Shown here in pieces: positions 22,760 to 55,865 of a stretch of 64,000 nucleotides of DNA (the first letter of the stretch is position 1; each line of letters starts with the position of its first letter). A program made the position numbers and the translations under genes. The notes under the pieces were generated by a model. That model was not told the origin of the DNA, searched no databases, and saw nothing but the letters and a program-made list of their open reading frames with translations. This DNA is from Lysobacteraceae bacterium (GTDB taxonomy: Bacteria > Pseudomonadota > Gammaproteobacteria > Xanthomonadales > Rhodanobacteraceae): positions 620,001 to 684,000 of the forward strand of contig SEHB01000001.1 of the NCBI GenBank assembly GCA_004143945.1, given 5' to 3'.

Positions 22760-24055
22760 TCAGCCCGCGGGCCCTGATCGCTTGGCGACCTCGCAAGCGA
22801 GGTTCGCAACGGGCAGTTCGAAGCCGTCGCGGAACAGTTCGTCACCGCCACCGAACAGGTGCACGCCGCCACGGTGTTCGAGTGCGCCCGCATGGCCGGG
22901 GGCCGCGACCGCGAGGCGCTGGTTCGACGCGGCGACGGCCCATCCGGCCATCGTCGCCGCAAGAGGTGCATCGAGTGTCGCGCGCGAGGTCGGGTTCCAC
23001 GTTGCGCCGGCACGCGCATACAGCGTCGCCGCGCCGCAGCCGTCGAGCGCATAGGGTGCGCCGACGAGCACCTCGATTTCGGGCGTCAACGCCACCGACC
23101 AGCCGAATCGATCGCCGGGGACGCCCGCCGGCGGCACCAGCCGCGCGCGTTGCGACCAGGTGCTGCCCGCCTGCATGAACAACAGCGCCGCACCGATGCG
23201 CGCATCGGCCATCGGTGCGCCCGCGACGATCGACTGTCCATCGAACGCGACCGAAAACCCGAGCAGGTCGCCGTCCGCGGCCGCGTTCGCGACGAACTTG
23301 GGGCCCTGCGACCATTCCGACTCGAGCAGCTGGAACAGGTAGACCGCACCGCGCGCGTATCCACCTGCCGCTTCGCCCGCCTCGAATGGCGCGCCCGCGA
23401 CGAACGCGTCCTCGTGCAGCGCGAGAGCGCGGCCGAGCCGGTCTCCTGCGGCAGCGTCCTCGGCCACCAGCCTCGCCTCGAGGCTCCACGCCGTGCCGCC
23501 GCGCGCGAACACGTAGACCGCGCCTGCATTGTCGTCGGCGCGGTCGGCGCCGACCACGAGTCGATCACCGCGCACATCGAGCGCGACGCCGAATCCGCCC
23601 GACGAAGATCCTGCGGGCGCGTCGATGCGCGCCTGCAGCGCCCAGCTGCCGCCGGCCTGCACGAACACGTAGACCGCGGCCGGGATCCGCGCCGGCGCGC
23701 CGACCACGAGCGTACCGGCGTCGAGCGCAACGGTCGCTCCGAAACGGTCGCCCGCGGCACCATCAGGTGCTTCGATGCGCAGCGGCGGCGAGCACGGCAC
23801 GCTCGCACAGTCGAACAGGTCGACCGCACCGGTCGCGCCCTCCCGCCCCGGGCTGCCGGCCACGATGCGGTTGGCGTCGCCATCCAGCGCGAACCCCAGC
23901 TCGTCGCCGGCCGCAGAAGCCGGATCGACGAGCAGTTCGCTGCCTGCCGCGCGCGCGGGTCGCGTGGCCGCCACGCCGACGAGACAGGCGCACGCGAGCG
24001 CCGCCAGCCACAGGCGCGTGCTCGCGGTCGCCGATGAGGTCGCGCAGGTTTCCAT
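22760..24055 (-). CDS. Secreted FG-GAP repeat (beta-propeller) protein with FRDGFE motif
   Basis: A 431-residue exported protein. After a signal peptide (LWLAALACACLVGVAATRPA), seven or so FG-GAP/integrin-alpha-like repeats follow, each of the form GDRFGxxVAL-DGxxLVVGAP-xGAVYVF. This predicts a seven-bladed propeller. Near the C-terminus (22811-22852) lies DELFRDGFELP, a motif shared with three other secreted proteins in this window, followed by about 20 residues. ATG 24055 is preferred over 24091 because it opens on the signal peptide. Function unknown; surface or extracellular binding is plausible. Confidence 0.82.
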   Translation of the reverse strand: METCATSSATASTRLWLAALACACLVGVAATRPARAAGSELLVDPASAAGDELGFALDGDANRIVAGSPGREGATGAVDLFDCASVPCSPPLRIEAPDGAAGDRFGATVALDAGTLVVGAPARIPAAVYVFVQAGGSWALQARIDAPAGSSSGGFGVALDVRGDRLVVGADRADDNAGAVYVFARGGTAWSLEARLVAEDAAAGDRLGRALALHEDAFVAGAPFEAGEAAGGYARGAVYLFQLLESEWSQGPKFVANAAADGDLLGFSVAFDGQSIVAGAPMADARIGAALLFMQAGSTWSQRARLVPPAGVPGDRFGWSVALTPEIEVLVGAPYALDGCGAATLYARAGATWNPTSRATLDAPLAATMAGWAVAASNQRLAVAAPGHAGALEHRGGVHLFGGGDELFRDGFELPVANLACEVAKRSGPAG

Positions 24056-32077: not shown

Positions 32078-34480
32078 TCAGTGCCGGATCGCGATCGGCA
32101 TCCGCAGCGGCGGCAGCAACACGTCGTCGCCGACCAGGTGCAGCTGGCCGAAGTTCCAGCCGTTCGCCATCATCGTTCCGTCGATCGTCACGGTGATCAC
32201 CTGCGTGCCGCCGGCGGGGAGCGTGAACGTCGAGGGCACCACCGTGGCCGAGCCGGTCGGCACGCCATCGATCGTCAGCACGTAGTCCTCGTCGACGAGC
32301 TGGGTGCTCGTCAGCGTGCGCGTGAACGTGCACGTCGTCGCGCAGTTCGCGCTCGCCATGCTCGCGAGGTTGAGCGTCGACATGTCGCCGCCCGCACCCG
32401 GGTTCGCGGCGAGGAAGTTCGCGTCGCTCTCGTCGAGCACGATGCCGCTCAGCGCCGCGCGCGTGAGGTCGACGCGGCCGGACCCGAGATCCCATGCATC
32501 GACCGTGCTGCCATCCGCGCGGATCAGGCCCTCGAGCTTCGAGGTCAGATTGATCGCCGAACGCACTTCGGTCGGCGACCACTCCGGCCGCACCGCGCGC
32601 AGCAGCACCGCTGCGCCCGAGAGATGCGGTCCCGACATCGAGGTGCCGTTCTGGATCGATGTCGCGGTCGCGCCCCCCGCGTTCGCGGCGTAGGCCGCGA
32701 GGATGTCGGTGCCCGGCGCGGTGATGTCGGGCTTCACGATGAACTGCCCGCCGACCGCGAACGGTCCGCGCGAGCTGTAGTCGGACACGACGTCGCCGCG
32801 CTGGGGGAACGAAGCCGCGGGCAGCGTGATCGACACGCGCGCGTTCTCCGGGTCGGACTCGATGTGGGTCCAGACCGCATCCCAGTCCGCCCGCAGCATC
32901 GACCACGACGTCTCGTTCGCCCCGAGGTTGATGAAGTCGCGGTCGACGAAGATCACGCCGATCGCACCGGCAGCGAGCGCAGCGGTGCGCCGCGCGCCGC
33001 TGCCGCAGTTGCTCGCGTTCTGGTCGAGCGCGAGTACCGCGACCGCCGGAATGCGCTGTGGTCCCGGCGCGCCGTCGAAGCCGTCGGCGAACACGAGATC
33101 GGGATCGACGCCGACCGGTACCGTGAACGTGTCGGCCGGATACGCCGCGCAGCCGTCATTGCTGCCGTCGGCGAAGTTGGGACTGCGCACGATCGGCGAC
33201 TCGACGATGTCCGCGGTCGGTACCGGCGGCGCGGCCGGACGCAGCGGCAGGCCGGTCGTGCCCGGCGGCGGCACGCCCGGGCCGACCAGGTCGAAGCGGA
33301 AACCGACGACGTTGTCCTTGGTCGATGCCGCGACGGTTTCGACCCAGGGCTCGACATGGTTCACGGTGCCCGCGCCGGGACCGTCATTGCCGGCCGATGC
33401 GTTGACGAACACGCCGGCCGCGACCGCGTTGCGGAACGCGATCGACACCGAGTCGCCCCACGGCGAAACACCGCCGCTGATCGAAAAGTTGAGCGTGTCG
33501 ACGCCGTCGATGACGGCCTGGTTGACCGCCTGCGACGAAGCGGTGGTCGGGCAGCCCGTGGTGCAGACGCGGAATGCGATCACGTTCGCGTGCGGCGCGA
33601 CGCCGGAAATCAGGAAACTGCCCGCGCCGAACGGCGCCGACCACTGGTTGCCTGCCACCGTGCTTGCGGTGTGCGAGCCGTGGCCATTGAGATCGGTCGC
33701 GCTGCGCGTCGCCGACGTGCTCGTGAAGTCGTACATGCCGATCAGCTTGTCGTTGCACCGACCGAGGTCGGCATTCGGCGGCACCGGCCCGCACAGGCCG
33801 AGGTAGACGCCCGCGCCGTTCGGGTTCTCGTGCACGTAGCCATCGATCGGACCGGTCGCGGCGAACGCGGGGCTCATCCAGTTGATGCCGGTATCGAGCA
33901 CCGCCGCGACCATGCCTGCGCCGCGCGTGGCCACGCCGCCCGACGCGCTGCCGTCCCAGATCGTAGGCGCGCCGATGAAGGTCGGGCCGCGATCGGTCAG
34001 CAGGTCCAGCATGCGTTCGCGTTCGACCAGCTCGACGTCCGCGCGCTGAGCGAGGATCGCCGCTTCGCGCTCGTCGATCTCGACGATGACCGCGTTCAGC
34101 GCATGCTGCATCGTAGCGATCGCCTGCAGCGGACGGCCGATCGCGGCAGCCGCTTCGGCGACGAACGCGGACTGGCGCGCGCGCAGGTGTTCGACGTAGG
34201 CCAGCGCCTGTGGCGAACGCAGGTCGACGCGACCAATCTTGCGTCCGCGCTGGATTTCCGGCGCCGCGGCGAAGCCCGCCACGCCGCCGCGATAGGACGC
34301 GACCGGCGCGCCCTTCAGTACGATCGTGTACTGCGCCGGGCCCGTCGCGGCGCTTTGCGCAGCGGCCTCGCCCGCTTCGGCGCGCACGGCTTGCGGCAAC
34401 GCCATGCCGAGGCAGAAGGCGGCGCAGACGGCGGCTGCGAGGGGCGTGAGGCGGGAATGCGGCGACGCGAACGCGATCAT
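32078..34480 (-). CDS. Secreted subtilisin-like serine protease (S8) with PA insert
   Basis: An 800-residue protease. Signal peptide (PLAAAVCAAFCLGMALPQ), then an I9-type propeptide (AQYTIVLKGAPVASYRGG), then the S8 domain. The catalytic triad is Asp196 (VLDTGINW), His267 (LNGHGSHTAS) and Ser614 (NGTSMSGPH); the oxyanion Asn is in NASAGNDGPG. A long insert between His and Ser holds a PA-type domain (AAGAIGVIFVDRD) and the motif DLVFADGFDGAPG at 33063-33112. The C-terminal part is a fibronectin-III-like domain (VVPSTFTLPAGGTQVITVTI). ATG 34480 follows a GGAG. It probably degrades external protein. Confidence 0.92.
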   Translation of the reverse strand: MIAFASPHSRLTPLAAAVCAAFCLGMALPQAVRAEAGEAAAQSAATGPAQYTIVLKGAPVASYRGGVAGFAAAPEIQRGRKIGRVDLRSPQALAYVEHLRARQSAFVAEAAAAIGRPLQAIATMQHALNAVIVEIDEREAAILAQRADVELVERERMLDLLTDRGPTFIGAPTIWDGSASGGVATRGAGMVAAVLDTGINWMSPAFAATGPIDGYVHENPNGAGVYLGLCGPVPPNADLGRCNDKLIGMYDFTSTSATRSATDLNGHGSHTASTVAGNQWSAPFGAGSFLISGVAPHANVIAFRVCTTGCPTTASSQAVNQAVIDGVDTLNFSISGGVSPWGDSVSIAFRNAVAAGVFVNASAGNDGPGAGTVNHVEPWVETVAASTKDNVVGFRFDLVGPGVPPPGTTGLPLRPAAPPVPTADIVESPIVRSPNFADGSNDGCAAYPADTFTVPVGVDPDLVFADGFDGAPGPQRIPAVAVLALDQNASNCGSGARRTAALAAGAIGVIFVDRDFINLGANETSWSMLRADWDAVWTHIESDPENARVSITLPAASFPQRGDVVSDYSSRGPFAVGGQFIVKPDITAPGTDILAAYAANAGGATATSIQNGTSMSGPHLSGAAVLLRAVRPEWSPTEVRSAINLTSKLEGLIRADGSTVDAWDLGSGRVDLTRAALSGIVLDESDANFLAANPGAGGDMSTLNLASMASANCATTCTFTRTLTSTQLVDEDYVLTIDGVPTGSATVVPSTFTLPAGGTQVITVTIDGTMMANGWNFGQLHLVGDDVLLPPLRMPIAIRH

Positions 34481-34680
34481 GGCGGGCTCCGGACGAATGG
34501 GTTCTGCAGGTGCCGGCGCGAAGATCCCCTGGGACCGGCCCCCCGAGCATACCTTGCACCGCATGCGGCGTCCCGCCGCGTCGGCGGAGCCTCGCCGGGC
34601 GACGCGCAACAGGGTGTCCGGGACACCCGCCGCGGGGAATTCGGCTGCAGAGCCGCGACCGGCGACGCCGCATGGCCCGT

Positions 34681-35496
34681 TCAGAACATGTGCTTTTCGA
34701 TGCCGAGTTGCGAAAGGATCTTGCTCGCGATTTCCTCGATCGAGGTGTGGGTGGTGTTCTGCACCGCGATGCTTTCGCGGCGGAACAGCTTGTCGGCCTG
34801 CGCGAGTTCCCAGCGGCACTGCTCGAGCTTGGCATAGCCGCTGCCGGGCCGGCGTGCCTCTCGCACCTGGGCGAGGCGCTGCGGGTCGATCGTCAGTCCG
34901 TACAGGCGCGCGCGATGCGGTAGCAGGCGCTTGGGAAGTTCCAGGCGCTCGAGGTCTTCCTCTGTCAGAGGATAGTTCGCGGCCTTCACGCCATAGTGCA
35001 GCGCCATGTAGAGGCAGGTCGGGGTCTTGCCGACGCGCGAAACGCCGACCAGCACGACGTCGGCGTCGGAGTAGTTCACGTCGATGCCGTCATCGTGCGC
35101 GAGCGCGTAGTTGGTCGCGTTGATGCGCGCCTCGTAGGCGGTGAAGTCGGTCATGCCGTGCGCCTTGCCGACGCGCGGCGAACGCATGGTGCCGAGCTCG
35201 GCCTCAAGCGGCCCGAGGAACGGCGCGAACACGTCGAGCATCAGCGCGCCGCTCTCGGCCACGATGTCGCTGAGCCGCGCGTCCATGATCGTGTTGACGA
35301 CGATCGGACGCACACCCGAGGTCGCATAAGCCGTCTTGATGCGTACCGCCGCGGCGTGCGCCTTGTCCTCGTCCTCGACGAACGGAATGCGGTAGGTGTC
35401 GAAGTCGACCGAATCGAATTGCGTCAGCACGCTGTGGCCGATCGTCTCCGCGGTGATGCCGGTGCCGTCGGAAATGTAGAAGATCGTGCGCCGCAT
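34681..35496 (-). CDS. ppsR: PEP synthase kinase/pyrophosphorylase (DUF299)
   Basis: A 271-residue bifunctional regulator that switches PEP synthase off by ADP-dependent phosphorylation of a Thr and on again by Pi-dependent removal. Family features: N-terminus [21 protein letters not shown]-loop [15 protein letters not shown] and the GLTIDPQRL segment. In most relatives ppsR lies next to and divergent from ppsA. Here ppsA starts at about 40972, more than 5 kb away, with two genes and a repeat element in between. ATG 35496 is the natural start. Confidence 0.95.
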
Positions 35497-35778
35497 CGAC
35501 GAATCCTGGCCGGGAAAGCGCCCAGTCTAAGCAATCGGCGTGGCTGCGCGCATCCGCTGCGCTGCCGTTGCGCTTCTGCTTCCCCCGCTTGCGGGGGAAG
35601 ATGCCGCGAAGCGGCAAAAGGGGCCGCTTTTGATCTTGATCCTGCTTCGCGTGGCGCAAGCGAAGGTCAAGAGCGCCCCTCATCCGCCCCTGCGAGGCAC
35701 CTTCTCCCGCAAGCGGGAGAAGGAGGAGAAACGCTGCGTGAGCCTCTGCTTCCCCCGCTTGCGGGCGACGAAGAGCAC
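35497..35778. repeat. Intergenic composite palindrome element, copy 1
   Basis: Palindrome A (CTTCCCCCGCTTGCGGGGGAAG, 35579-35600) and palindrome B (CCTTCTCCCGCAAGCGGGAGAAGG, 35700-35723) are joined by about 100 bases. These contain GATCTTGATC and CCCTCATCCGCCCCTGCGAGG. A partial extra copy of A runs into 35750-35768. The same A-spacer-B arrangement occurs at 55652-55791. Both copies lie directly downstream of genes that share a C-terminal domain, and in the same orientation relative to those genes. No gene is seen in this gap. Confidence 0.85.
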
Positions 35779-38331
35779 TTATCGCAGCGGCGTCACCGTG
35801 ACGTTGTCGACCATCACGCGCGGTGCGGTCGGCTGGCCGTTGAAGGTCGCGTGGAGCTTGAATGCGTCGATGGCCGGCGCCGAGATCGACAGACGAGACG
35901 TCGCGGGGTGGTCGCGATCGCCCTCGCCTGCGAGCGTGAGGCTGTCGCTCGCGACGAGTGCGCCGCGTTCGTAGCCTTCGAGGTGAACCACGATGCCGCC
36001 CCAGGGGCCGTTCTCGTAGTAGGCGAGATCCATCGCGACGGCCTGCGCCGGCCGCTCGAGTCCGCCGCTCGCCCGCACGAGCGCGCCGATCGAGAAGTTG
36101 TCGCCGTTGACGAACGAAGTGCCGAAGGTCAGCGTGTTCGGTGCGCTGCCGAAGTCGGGAAAGTCGGCGTAGAACACGCTCGCATCCTCGATCACGAGCT
36201 GGTCGCCGACGTCTGCCGGCACGAAGGTGCTGCCATCGGGGAACACGCCGCCGATGCCATTGACCTCGTGCCAGTTGATGCCGCCGTGCTGCATCGAGGT
36301 GCCCATGAAACCCTCGGCGAGTGCGTCGAACGTGCTCACCTGCGGCGCCACCGGCGCGGCGTCGAAGCCGTCGGCGAAGATCGCGTCCGAGACCGCCATC
36401 TCGCCGAGCACGTGCGTGCCGACCTGCCGATTGAACACGAACAGGCGCCCGTCGCCGGTCGCGCGCATCCGCACGGGCAGGTAGCCACCGATCCAGGTGG
36501 TGGCGACGAAGGCGGGGTTCGTCTCGTCGGAGACATCGATCTCGTGCACGCCCGCGCGATCGCCGAACCACGCGCGATGGCCGTCGACCGCGACGGTCGA
36601 GCCGTTGGCCCACTCCGCCGGCCAGCCACCGAGGCGCACCGGCGCTGCCGGATTCGTGATGTCGACGACCTGCAGGCCGGTCTCGCAGGCCACGAACGCG
36701 CGCGTGCCGTCGGCGCTGACCTGCACGTCGTAGGCGCCGGCCATGATGCCCATGCAGCCGTCGCTGTAGATCGCGACCACCGCGGGCGCATCGGGATCGG
36801 ACACGTCGATGACGTGCAGGCCCGCGAACTCGTCGGCCGCGTAGACGTAGTTGCCATGCACCTGCAGGCGGAACACCGAGGTCATCGTGACGGCGCCACG
36901 CAGCACCGGCGCCGCTGGATCGGACACGTCGACGACCTGCACCACGCCGCCATTGGTCACCGTGCCGATGTAGGCGTAGTCGCCCTTGGCCGCGACCGCG
37001 GATGGATACTCGTACTCGATCTTGCCGAGTTCGACCGGGGCGAGCGGATCGGCGAGGTCGGCGATCACGAGCCCGTAGCCCCATGCGACGAGGTAAGCGC
37101 GCGTGCCGTCGACCGCGAACTGCTCGAAGTCGCGCTGATTGAGCTGCTCGGGCAGGCTCGCATCGAAGCGCGCGATCGGCGCGAGCGTACGCGCATCGGC
37201 GATGCCGAGGCCATAGTTCTCCGCGAGCAGCACCGCCTTGCCGTCGACGATCGCGACGTCGGTCGTGACCACGCCGCCATGCGGCGCGGTTTCGCTGACG
37301 AGCGCCGGCGCGGTCGGCGCGGACACGTCGAGGCGCTGGAAACGGTCGGTGCTCGTCAGCACCAGCGCGCCGTCGGCGAGCGGCGTCACCGAGCTCGCGC
37401 CGAGCGTGGGGATGTCCGAATGCCCGGCCGCGACCGGCGCCGACGGATCGGCGATGTCCCAGATGTCGATGCCCGCGAAACCGAGGCTGTAGGCATGGTC
37501 GCCCGACACGAAACCGTCGGTCGCGGGCGGCGTGTCAATGCTGCCGAGCAGCATCGGATCGGCCGGGTCGGCGAGGTCGCGCAGCGTGAGCTTGAGGCCG
37601 AACGATGCCGCCTGCGTGCCCTGCACGCGCGTGCGGAAGTTCTCGAGCGGATCGCCGCCGCCGCAGCCGCCGATCGCGACCGGCATGGCCGGATCGCTGA
37701 CGTCGAACGTCGTGCAGACATGGAACTGCTGGTTCGACATCTGGTTGCCGCTCGCGTACACGAGGTTGCCCTCGACGCGGCTGCGGTTGTAGATCGTCGG
37801 CCAGCGGACATGCTGCGTGAACGTCGGATGCAGCGGATCGGCACCGAGGTCGCCGCCGTAGATGCCGTTCTCCTGGTCGAACAGGTAGAGGTAGCCGTTC
37901 GCGGCAGCGATCGTCCACGCCTGCTTGAACGAGGAGGCGGTGTAGTCGTCGAATTCGTTGACGAGTACCGGATGGGCGGGATCGGCGATCGAATACACCG
38001 CCACGCCGCCGCTGTCGTCGCCGGCCTGCCAGCTCGCGTAAAGGTAGTCGCCCCAGCGCGTGAGCCCGTGGATCGCGCCGCGCGCTGGCGCGGTGCCCGC
38101 GTCGACGAGCAGCGGGGCCGCCGGCAGCGCATGGCTCCAGGTGCTGACGATCCGGCCCGACGCGACGTAGACCCAGGGGCCATCGACGACCGGATCGACG
38201 AGCGCACCGCCGAGCACGCGCGTGACTTCGAGCGGCGCCGGCGTGCCGGCCGCGCGTGGCAGCGTCGCGGCCGCGGTCGCCGCGGGCATCGACAGGACGC
38301 CGAGCAGCGCGGCGGCGATCAGGTTCTTCAT
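35779..38331 (-). CDS. Secreted LVIVD-repeat propeller protein with shared C-terminal domain
   Basis: An 850-residue exported protein (signal peptide [20 protein letters not shown]). About residues 40-640 are LVIVD-type propeller repeats of the form AYVAxGxxGLxVIDVSDPxxPVxxG. The motif [12 protein letters not shown] lies at residues 647-658 and leads to a C-terminal beta-rich domain of about 185 residues. That domain is strongly similar to the end of the Kelch protein at 53891-55615 (for example [41 protein letters not shown]). GGAGG lies before ATG 38331. It probably acts at the cell surface or outside; ligand unknown. Confidence 0.85.
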
Positions 38332-53890: not shown

Positions 53891-55615
53891 ATGAACGGCA
53901 TCCTGCGCGTGATCGCGATCGCCGCCTGCTGTGTGCAGGCGAGCCTGGCCCATGGAGGCGGGGGATTCGAGGCGACCGGTGAAATGAACGTGCCGCGCTC
54001 GCACCAGGGCGCCGCGCTGCTGCCCGACGGGCGCGTGCTGGAGGTCGGCGGGATCGCCGGCACCGGCAACGTCGTCGGAAGTGCGGAATTCTACGACCCC
54101 GCGACCGGCGCGTTCACGCCCACCGGCAGCCTCGCCGATGCACGCATGCGCCCGACCACGGTGGCGCTCATGGATGGACGCGTACTCGTGGCCGGCGGGC
54201 GCGGCGGCAACCAGGGCGACACGATCTTCGCGAGCGCGGAAATCTACGATCCGGCGACCGGCCAATTCACGCCGACCGGCAGCATGACCGAACCGCGCTA
54301 CGTCACCGCGGTCGCGCGCCTCGACGATGGCCGCGTGCTGTTCGCGGGCGGCTTCAACTTCACCACCGACACGCTCGCGAGTGCCGAAGTCTACGACCCG
54401 GCAACGGGCACCTTCAGCCCGACCGGCCCGCTCTCCGCACCGCGCGATCCCGGCGGACGCGCCGCCAAGCTCGCCGACGGTCGCGTGCTCATCGCAGGAG
54501 GCTACGACGACTCGGGCGCGCTCGGTACGGCCGAAGTCTACGATCCGACCACCGGCCAGTTCACGCTGACCGGCAGCCTGACCGAACCGCGTGGCGACCA
54601 CGCGATCGCGACGCTCGCCGATGGGCGCGTGCTGGTCGTCGGCGGACTCGGCAACACGAGCTATCTCGCGCAAGCCGAACTCTACGATCCCGCGAGCGGT
54701 ACCTTCTCGCCGACCGGCAGCCTCGCGCACGTGCGCGCGAATCCGACCGCGACCCTGCTCGCCGACGGCCGCGTGCTCGTCGCCGGTGGCAACGGCAACG
54801 TGACGGGCGACCCCAACATCGCGCCCGCCGAGGTCTACGACCCTGCGAGCGGAACCTTCAGCGACGTCGGCGACCTCATCACCCCGAGCATGAGCGGCAC
54901 CGCGGTGCGCCTGGCCGATGGCCGCGTGCTGCTCGCGGGCGGCTGGGCCGGCGTCGAGGACATGCCGACCGCACACGCGGAACTGTTCGTCGCCGGAGCC
55001 GGCGACGACCGCATCTTCCGCGACGGCTTCGAGCTGCCGCAGGTCGATCCCGTGCTCGTGACCTACGACGATCTGGCCGAAAGTTTCCTCGGCACGTCCT
55101 TCACGCACGAAGGCATCACCTACCGCGACTGCAACGGCATCGGCGGCGTGTTCCCCGACGGCAGCACGTTCGAGCCGGCCGACGTCGGCGACCAGTTCAT
55201 CATCGAGAACGCGACGCTGTTCTGGAACGACTTCCCCGACTTCGGCAGCGCACCGAACACGCTGACCTTCGGCACCAGCTACGTGGTCGGCGACAACCTC
55301 TCGATCGGCGCGCTCGTTCGCGCGACGATGGAACTCGATGCGCCCGCGCGCGCAGCCAGCGTCCAGCTCGCCTACTACGAGAACGGTCCCTGGGGTGGCA
55401 TCGAGATCCACCTCGATGCGCTGTCGGGCGACGCCGTCGTCGACAGCGACGTACTGACGATCGCTGGCGGCGGGGACCGCGACAACCCGGCGGTCGCGAC
55501 GCTCGCGGTCGATGGCGTGGTGTTCGACACCCTGCGCCTCCATGCGACCTGGCAAGGCCAGCCGACCGCGCCACGCGTGATGATCGACAACCTTCAACTG
55601 ACGCCGCTGCGTTGA
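53891..55615 (+). CDS. Secreted Kelch-propeller protein with shared C-terminal domain
   Basis: A 574-residue exported protein (signal peptide MNGILRVIAIAACCVQASLA). Residues 25-370 are six or seven Kelch repeats (DGRVLVAGG, SAEIYDPATGQFTPTGSM), predicted to form a propeller. The motif DRIFRDGFELP at residues 373-383 joins it to a C-terminal domain of about 185 residues. That domain is highly similar to the end of the LVIVD protein at 35779-38331 ([41 protein letters not shown]). GGAGG precedes the ATG. The composite repeat lies just after the stop. Function unknown, likely extracellular. Confidence 0.87.
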   Translation: MNGILRVIAIAACCVQASLAHGGGGFEATGEMNVPRSHQGAALLPDGRVLEVGGIAGTGNVVGSAEFYDPATGAFTPTGSLADARMRPTTVALMDGRVLVAGGRGGNQGDTIFASAEIYDPATGQFTPTGSMTEPRYVTAVARLDDGRVLFAGGFNFTTDTLASAEVYDPATGTFSPTGPLSAPRDPGGRAAKLADGRVLIAGGYDDSGALGTAEVYDPTTGQFTLTGSLTEPRGDHAIATLADGRVLVVGGLGNTSYLAQAELYDPASGTFSPTGSLAHVRANPTATLLADGRVLVAGGNGNVTGDPNIAPAEVYDPASGTFSDVGDLITPSMSGTAVRLADGRVLLAGGWAGVEDMPTAHAELFVAGAGDDRIFRDGFELPQVDPVLVTYDDLAESFLGTSFTHEGITYRDCNGIGGVFPDGSTFEPADVGDQFIIENATLFWNDFPDFGSAPNTLTFGTSYVVGDNLSIGALVRATMELDAPARAASVQLAYYENGPWGGIEIHLDALSGDAVVDSDVLTIAGGGDRDNPAVATLAVDGVVFDTLRLHATWQGQPTAPRVMIDNLQLTPLR

Positions 55616-55651
55616 GGCGTGGTGCCGTGCTGCGATTCCCTTCTGCCGTCC

Positions 55652-55865
55652 CCTTCTCCCACTCGCGGGAGAAGGGGCCCCGCAGGGGCGGATGAGGGAA
55701 GCTCCTGATCTTCGATCACGCCACGAAGATCAAGATCAAGGGCAGCCCCCTTCTGCCGCTGCGCGGCATCTTCCCCCGCAAGCGGGGGAAGCAGGAGCGC
55801 GGGTGCTGCCGTTCCCTTCTCCCGCTCGCGGGAGAAGGTGCCCCGCAGGGGCGGATGAGGGGGCG
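55652..55865. repeat. Intergenic composite palindrome element, copy 2
   Basis: Palindrome B (55652-55675), a spacer with GGGGCGGATGAGGG and AAGATCAAGATCAAG, and palindrome A (CTTCCCCCGCAAGCGGGGGAAG, 55770-55791). A second palindrome B with its GCGGATGAGGG flank follows at 55815-55861. In reverse complement the first part matches the element at 35579-35723 in order and wording. It fills most of the gap between the Kelch gene and lexA (55616-55921), which holds no gene. Confidence 0.87.

Follow-up and report, generated by a model that had tools for sequence, protein, structure and literature searches.

The window analysed here, a 64,000-nt stretch of a Lysobacteraceae genome, encodes two beta-propeller proteins of different kinds, one with Kelch and the other with LVIVD repeats. 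The initial annotation proposed that they share nearly the same last ~185 residues, a domain without a name that might act as a mobile surface-binding or sorting module. This raises the question of how one C-terminal region came to stand behind two unrelated propellers, and what it does there.

Two unrelated propeller proteins share a C-terminal region

The Kelch protein (574 aa; Kelch Pfam models, best E 3.1e-36) is encoded at 53891..55615 on the plus strand and the LVIVD protein (850 aa; LVIVD Pfam model, E 3.8e-33) at 35779..38331 on the minus strand. Both genes lie where the initial annotation had placed them, to which we add the strand of the second. By BLASTP, residues 373-574 of the Kelch protein and 649-850 of the LVIVD protein align without gaps with 126 of 202 residues identical (62%, E 3e-81), and the sequence blocks listed earlier as common to both are visible in this alignment. 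The propellers themselves show no similarity in this comparison, all other listed pairings having E ≥2.5, so the sharing of one C-terminal region by different propellers holds. Pfam assigns Kelch repeats to one protein and LVIVD repeats to the other, and has no match in their common part.

The 202-residue stretch consists of a short motif (in the following called the tag), a linker and a folded domain proper of ~183 residues. In the Kelch gene, the propeller region (approximately 53969..54994, +, judged from the Pfam Kelch stretches and from the end of its closest relatives at the tag) is followed by the tag DRIFRDGFE (55007..55033, +) and the domain (55064..55612, +). The LVIVD gene carries the tag DAIFADGFD (36361..36387, −), within residues 647-661, a segment between propeller and domain modelled with pLDDT <50, and the domain at 35782..36330 (−). 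Both tags were located by a six-frame motif scan and both domain copies by BLASTP.

The initial annotation had suggested searching the host for the domain behind other propellers, and a third copy was indeed found, at the end of a 686-residue protein with a delta-60 repeat propeller. Its tag and domain start 5.8 kb beyond the window end. This copy is 68% identical to the Kelch copy, the three copies share 62-68% identity, and all lie within 35 kb on one contig.

Palindromic intergenic repeats of the CTTCTCCCGCTTGCGGGAGAAGG type lie downstream of the Kelch gene (55643..55861, +) and of the LVIVD gene (35570..35723, −, within the stretch 35570-35771), with 84% identity over 155 bp between the two sides. 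Within the window and further stretches of the same genome (~426 kb, 12% of the genome), these repeats occur at those two places only. Behind the delta-60 gene a different repeat was seen (L004 6423-6700; ~3 copies of ~95 bp, ~92% identity), relatives of which occur in several other tag loci.

The tag is the seam between propeller and domain

Pairwise blastn of the three genes placed the boundary of the shared DNA precisely. Similarity between the Kelch and LVIVD genes (74%) sets in with the first IFRDGFE codon, which lies at nucleotide 1123 of the Kelch gene; between the Kelch and delta-60 genes (74%) it begins 7 bases ahead of that codon, and between the delta-60 and LVIVD genes (71%) at the tag. 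Further matches were confined to one of 32 bp between the Kelch and delta-60 genes and to the downstream repeats, and the Kelch-LVIVD match runs on beyond the stop codon because similar palindromes trail both genes.

We then looked at 10 Kelch-propeller loci and at all 16 delta-60 places found. The four closest relatives of the Kelch propeller (54-57% identical; a copy on contig C25 of the same genome and copies in G015, G013 and G009, all three of the same genus) end 4, 4, 4 and 7 residues past the tag, without the domain. Among the other Kelch loci, one ends in IFADDFE (L176), two in looser variants (L175, L177), one continues behind the tag into a different stretch of 163 residues (L186) and one ran off its stretch (L174). 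Nine of the 16 delta-60 loci end 0-3 residues past the tag without the domain, six carry the domain, and one ran off its stretch. The tag thus marks the seam between propeller and domain.

These observations bear on the simplest alternative, that a propeller-domain gene was copied as a whole and one propeller then diverged beyond recognition. The clustering of all three copies on one contig, the palindromes shared downstream of the Kelch and LVIVD genes, and the pairing of these two copies in the domain tree (91/89, below the mark for strong support) would fit such a duplication, but the DNA similarity stops at the tag, save for the one 32-bp match elsewhere, and for two of the three propellers (Kelch and delta-60) there are domain-less relatives that end in the tag. 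We regard this scenario as very improbable; duplication including the propeller had been named beforehand as what would speak against a mobile domain.

An uncharacterised family with a predicted carbohydrate-binding fold

We collected 56 members of the domain. None matched a named Pfam or NCBIfam family above its curated cut-off in searches allowing E up to 1; the weak matches were to two Pfam families (best E 0.054) and to six NCBIfam families, one member each (best E 0.037). The family is hence uncharacterised, as had been supposed, and a PDB sequence search with the domain gave no convincing match either.

An AlphaFold2 (AF2) model of the domain from 56 aligned rows has a mean pLDDT of 93.6 and a pTM of 0.88, and its strands form a beta-sandwich, in agreement with the earlier guess. 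The first ten residues, including the tag, have a mean pLDDT of only 59. In the model of the full LVIVD protein (pLDDT 78.5, 22 rows) the tag also falls in a low-confidence stretch.

Foldseek against the PDB placed gingipain cleaved-adhesin domains, meprin (presumably its MAM domain, the table naming meprin only), CBM4, CBM16, CBM29 and a few others on top, with E from 8e-5. The domain resembles these beta-sandwiches in fold class, size and place in secreted multidomain proteins. It differs from them in its low identity (8-16% across the 50 listed matches), in TM-scores that, for the 24 matches with E ≤0.001, do not exceed 0.49 (query length) or 0.57 (target length), and in having no sequence-profile match; even the Pfam model of the cleaved adhesin domain, the top structural neighbour, finds nothing in it. 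A viral structure library gave 15 matches with E ≤0.001 and low TM-scores, including a tail fibre and a collagen-like protein. Given the low TM-scores, the model makes a carbohydrate-binding-module-like fold class likely, but polysaccharide binding is a prediction only.

Fifteen alignment columns are invariant in all 56 rows, including those of Y-x-x-GPW-x-G, and an E and an N ahead of GPW occur in at least 90%. This conserved stretch is likely a functional loop. Such a loop (Y-ENGPWGG), strongly conserved across phyla, might instead serve a small molecule, for example a corrinoid, as in the DUF4465 structure with vitamin B12 (9hmu), which appears at Foldseek rank 33 (E 1.5e-3). The likeness to DUF4465 is a distant one of fold, however, with no link in sequence, and most of the structures ranked above it are CBMs, cleaved adhesins or meprin. 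We therefore consider a small-molecule binder improbable and keep a polysaccharide-binding module as the preferred reading of the domain.

The domain occurs in several phyla with different tails

The domain was detected in 9 of 61 near genomes (own genome included), in 10 of 233 genomes of the family (2 of 26 genera) and in 7 of 398 sampled genomes of the order (2 of 98 genera). A scan with one genome per species yielded 53 domain loci. By title, 11 belong to Lysobacterales and 37 to Planctomycetota or Phycisphaerae, -ales or -aceae; the remaining five are one each from Krumholzibacteriota, Fimbriimonadaceae, Vicinamibacteraceae, Cyanobacteria and a mere "bacterium". Bins that are wrongly labelled or unplaced may account for the last three. 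The tree sets the "Cyanobacteria" locus (L101) close to a Phycisphaerales one (L095) and the "Vicinamibacteraceae" locus (L086) among Planctomycetota, which makes both labels doubtful.

In this arbitrarily rooted tree, 13 Dokdonella-type rows group together with support (99/92) amid Planctomycetota rows. Two further Lysobacterales rows (L070, L085) stand apart, and a single clade of all 15 rows is not rejected (p-AU 0.404). The greater diversity of the domain in Planctomycetota suggests that it was transferred from there to Dokdonella. The partner type switches at least four times on the 12 labelled rows, where three states need a minimum of two switches.

Lysobacterales copies stand behind Kelch, LVIVD and delta-60 propellers, and also occur in a stand-alone (L011) and a tandem form (L009); many N-terminal partners had been named in advance as support for such a family. 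The Kelch-domain combination was seen only in the own genome among the Lysobacterales copies examined. Some copies have a poor tag: the first copy of G008 has none, that of G014 reads YVYANSFE and one of G019 FREVFDE. One LVIVD gene (L018, G008:C16:89116) ends in a truncated domain copy, a hint that the domain, once gained, can also be lost.

Outside Lysobacterales the domain follows closely, as judged by eye, on a signal-peptide-like start. According to text rules, with one locus (L092) reassigned by eye, the 42 non-Lysobacterales copies continue behind the domain into PEP-CTERM-like (27) or dockerin-like tails (10), an extra region of ~110 residues (4) or nothing (1). The ~110-residue region takes the place of an anchor in L082, L084, L086 and L092. 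Curated anchor cut-offs were passed in three of the ten Planctomycetota-type proteins scanned, by GC-type dockerins in L076 and L080 (the latter also Dockerin_1) and by the Pfam PEP-CTERM model in L077; the others had weaker matches or none. The same domain is thus joined to anchor modules that differ by lineage, with the tag in Lysobacterales.

As to carriers, none of 11 viral stretches that fit a pattern encodes a relative, so there is no sign of phage carriage. All 50 plasmid records matched by the Kelch protein are <60% identical to it and none covers 80% of the query; the best five of the 50 stop short of the domain.

The distribution also allows the domain to be the anchor itself, with the tag as a leftover of the old C-terminus that has no present role in these fusions, a view compatible with a sorting role of the tag elsewhere. 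The domain-less propeller relatives ending at the tag, and the domain copies whose tag has decayed, are in line with it. All three copies, the two in the window and the one beyond it, have an intact tag, however, and in Planctomycetota anchor-like tails come after the domain, for which there would be no need if the domain anchored alone. We consider this unlikely. That the domain is a binding module rather than a sorting signal is the more likely reading, so that of the "mobile surface-binding or sorting module" first proposed the binding part is retained, whereas the sorting-like element is not the domain but the tag of 7-9 residues just ahead of it.

The tag marks the ends of many unrelated proteins

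The consensus of the tag is D-x-IF-x-DGF[DE], and the DNA pattern scanned was IF-x-x-[GSR]F-[DE]. It has 66 matches in the genome, the Kelch tag being one of them, and the backward control none. Of these 66, each of which was read, 47 stand within six residues of the stop codon, where 0.85 would be expected if tags were evenly placed in the open frame, and 54 within 35 residues; among the 12 that are more than 50 residues away, one looks like chance (L169; IFDDRFE in a 159-residue frame). Positions not fixed by the pattern are conserved as well: D or E occurs two residues ahead of the I in 64 of 66 tags, and the residue preceding the G, for which six others were permitted, is D or N in 65 of 66.

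With V or L allowed at the I position, the number per genome exceeds 66. The six-frame motif scan showed two such variants in the window: VFADGFD (33074..33094, −), which lies at an unusual internal position in a subtilase (gene 32078-34819, −), within its Peptidase_S8 stretch, and LFRDGFE (22817..22837, −) in an FG-GAP_2 protein, 18 residues ahead of its stop.

By one crude rule, a signal-peptide-like start is present in 34 of 39 tagged versus 21 of 60 untagged coding-like frames (27 of 39 versus 18 of 60 within the first 100 residues), and in 56 of all 65 tagged frames when L169 is excluded. Among the best 25 of 43 families matched, these 65 proteins include beta-helices, FG-GAP proteins, subtilases, other peptidases, glycosidases and propellers. 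The best 25 of 40 NCBIfam families at E ≤0.001 include choice_anch_Q (8 of 65), choice_anch_B (2), M36 peptidases dependent on myxosortase (2), rhombosortase (2) and T9SS (1), and a MYXO-CTERM-anchored family (1), all judged by E rather than by curated cut-offs; one comparable case falls far under its cut-off, the LVIVD protein scoring 30.5 bits against choice_anch_B (cut-off 100).

Ten of the 65 tails were searched against NCBIfam and gave no match, even at E 10. None of the 54 near-terminal tags is followed by a helix-like stretch, and only one has two or more K/R in its last six residues. Apart from the C-terminus, tags occur between domains and, as judged by eye, just after the signal peptide (L125, L154, L226, L235). 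Proteins with further regions behind the tag suggest that it may be a general joint; in L128, L139, L158, L165 and L143, the 121-497 residues behind it have no Pfam match above cut-off.

Distribution of the tag across the order

Tag matches were found in 218 of 398 genomes of the order. The nine sampled genomes of the genus have 35-145 each and several other families reach tens, while one family (f2) has mostly 0-3, with 31, 23 and 16 in G311, G424 and G492 as exceptions. In a class sample of 143 genomes, the 141 outside the order had no more than 7, against up to 5 for the backward controls. The tag is thus abundant in parts of the order and at background level outside. Twelve non-Lysobacterales genomes with the domain have 0-3 tags, versus 46-145 in four Dokdonella-titled genomes.

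We read 20 stretches, hand-picked rather than random, from the listed places in five genomes of four other Lysobacterales families. These contain 23 matches. Seventeen are no more than six residues from a stop (one on the strand opposite another), three are 12-20 residues away, some of them in tandem, and the other three directly follow a signal-peptide-like stretch. The tag therefore stays near the stop in families with other codon usage. Tandem tags were seen in L217, L221 and L235, for example IFEDGFDPFIDLIFIDGFE at a C-terminus.

A mobile element acting at the DNA level was rejected as the cause of the tag, since other families keep the protein motif while encoding it with AT-rich codons. 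Such endings are familiar from Xanthomonadales proteins, without a name. Searches of open-access full text turned up nothing on the tag; papers containing the motif letters treat unrelated topics and appear to hold chance strings.

Comparison with known sorting and secretion systems

The GlyGly-CTERM/rhombosortase and MYXO-CTERM/myxosortase signals (PMC3237569, PMC11980579) are tripartite, with a motif, a transmembrane helix and a basic tail. Like them, the tag is a short mark that recurs at the C-termini of many unrelated exported proteins within one lineage, and the families of these proteins carry other sorting tails elsewhere. Unlike them, it has no helix (0 of 54) and almost no basic tail (1 of 54), and it also stands after signal peptides and between domains. 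A sorting signal of the PEP-CTERM kind was rejected because of the missing helix and basic tail and because the own genome has no exosortase (PF09721), which is present in 2 of 16 genomes of the genus.

We read the tag as a sorting signal by the same reasoning that was applied to GlyGly-CTERM, whose families carry different functional tails in different lineages (PMC3237569). The NCBIfam "choice-of-anchor" families (choice_anch_B, choice_anch_Q and others) follow the same logic, their tails differing by lineage from PEP-CTERM-like to GC-dockerin-like and here the tag, but no such model covers the domain and none matched the ten tag tails. That the tag is cleaved is unlikely, given the position of the domain: an LPXTG- or PEP-CTERM-like cut at the tag would remove everything behind it, the domain included. 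The tags just after signal peptides likewise speak against a C-terminal cleavage signal.

Could the tag be a processing or modification site, at which proteins that type II secretion has already exported are cut by a protease, glycosylated or joined to a lipid or ligand? Type II secretins (GspD) pass the family cut-off in all 16 genomes of the genus, the tag falls in the low-confidence stretches of both models, and its occurrence at C-termini, behind signal peptides and between domains would suit such a site. It would, however, have no need to stand within six residues of the stop, as 47 of 66 tags do, and we think it doubtful as the main role.

A proposed model: a mobile binding domain appended behind a sorting tag

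We favour, with a probability of roughly 0.55, the reading that a mobile extracellular binding domain of ~183 residues was appended behind the terminal tag of unrelated secreted beta-propellers, and that the tag is a sorting or surface signal. As such it would be unlike the known ones, having neither membrane helix nor basic tail. Tagged proteins would leave the cytoplasm via Sec, and the tag, exposed in a flexible linker, would be recognised by a Lysobacterales machinery for sorting or surface retention, possibly in concert with type II secretion. The domain would then bind a polysaccharide of the envelope or matrix and give the propeller a second hold.

New fusions may arise by recombination at the near-identical ~20 bp of tag DNA, the partners being a gene with the tag at its end and another with the tag ahead of the domain. 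Among the loci read, no gene with a signal peptide, an intact tag and then the domain was seen, so the donor in this scheme is assumed.

More tentatively, and at somewhat less than even odds, we propose that D-x-IF-x-DGF[DE] is the signature of an undescribed sorting or surface-display system of Lysobacterales, one that dispenses with a transmembrane helix and a basic tail, acts at either end of the mature protein and serves tens to more than 100 proteins per Dokdonella genome, and whose DNA serves as a seam for adding new binding domains. Because the order has both tag-rich and tag-free families, a partner enzyme, if the tag is indeed a sorting signal, could be searched for by phylogenetic profiling.

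The analysis adds an uncharacterised family of putative binding domains that spans several phyla, and a short tag, without an NCBIfam match in the ten tails searched, carried by tens of proteins per genome in some parts of the order. Should the tag be a sorting signal, the proteins that carry it could be predicted to have a cell-surface or extracellular fate.
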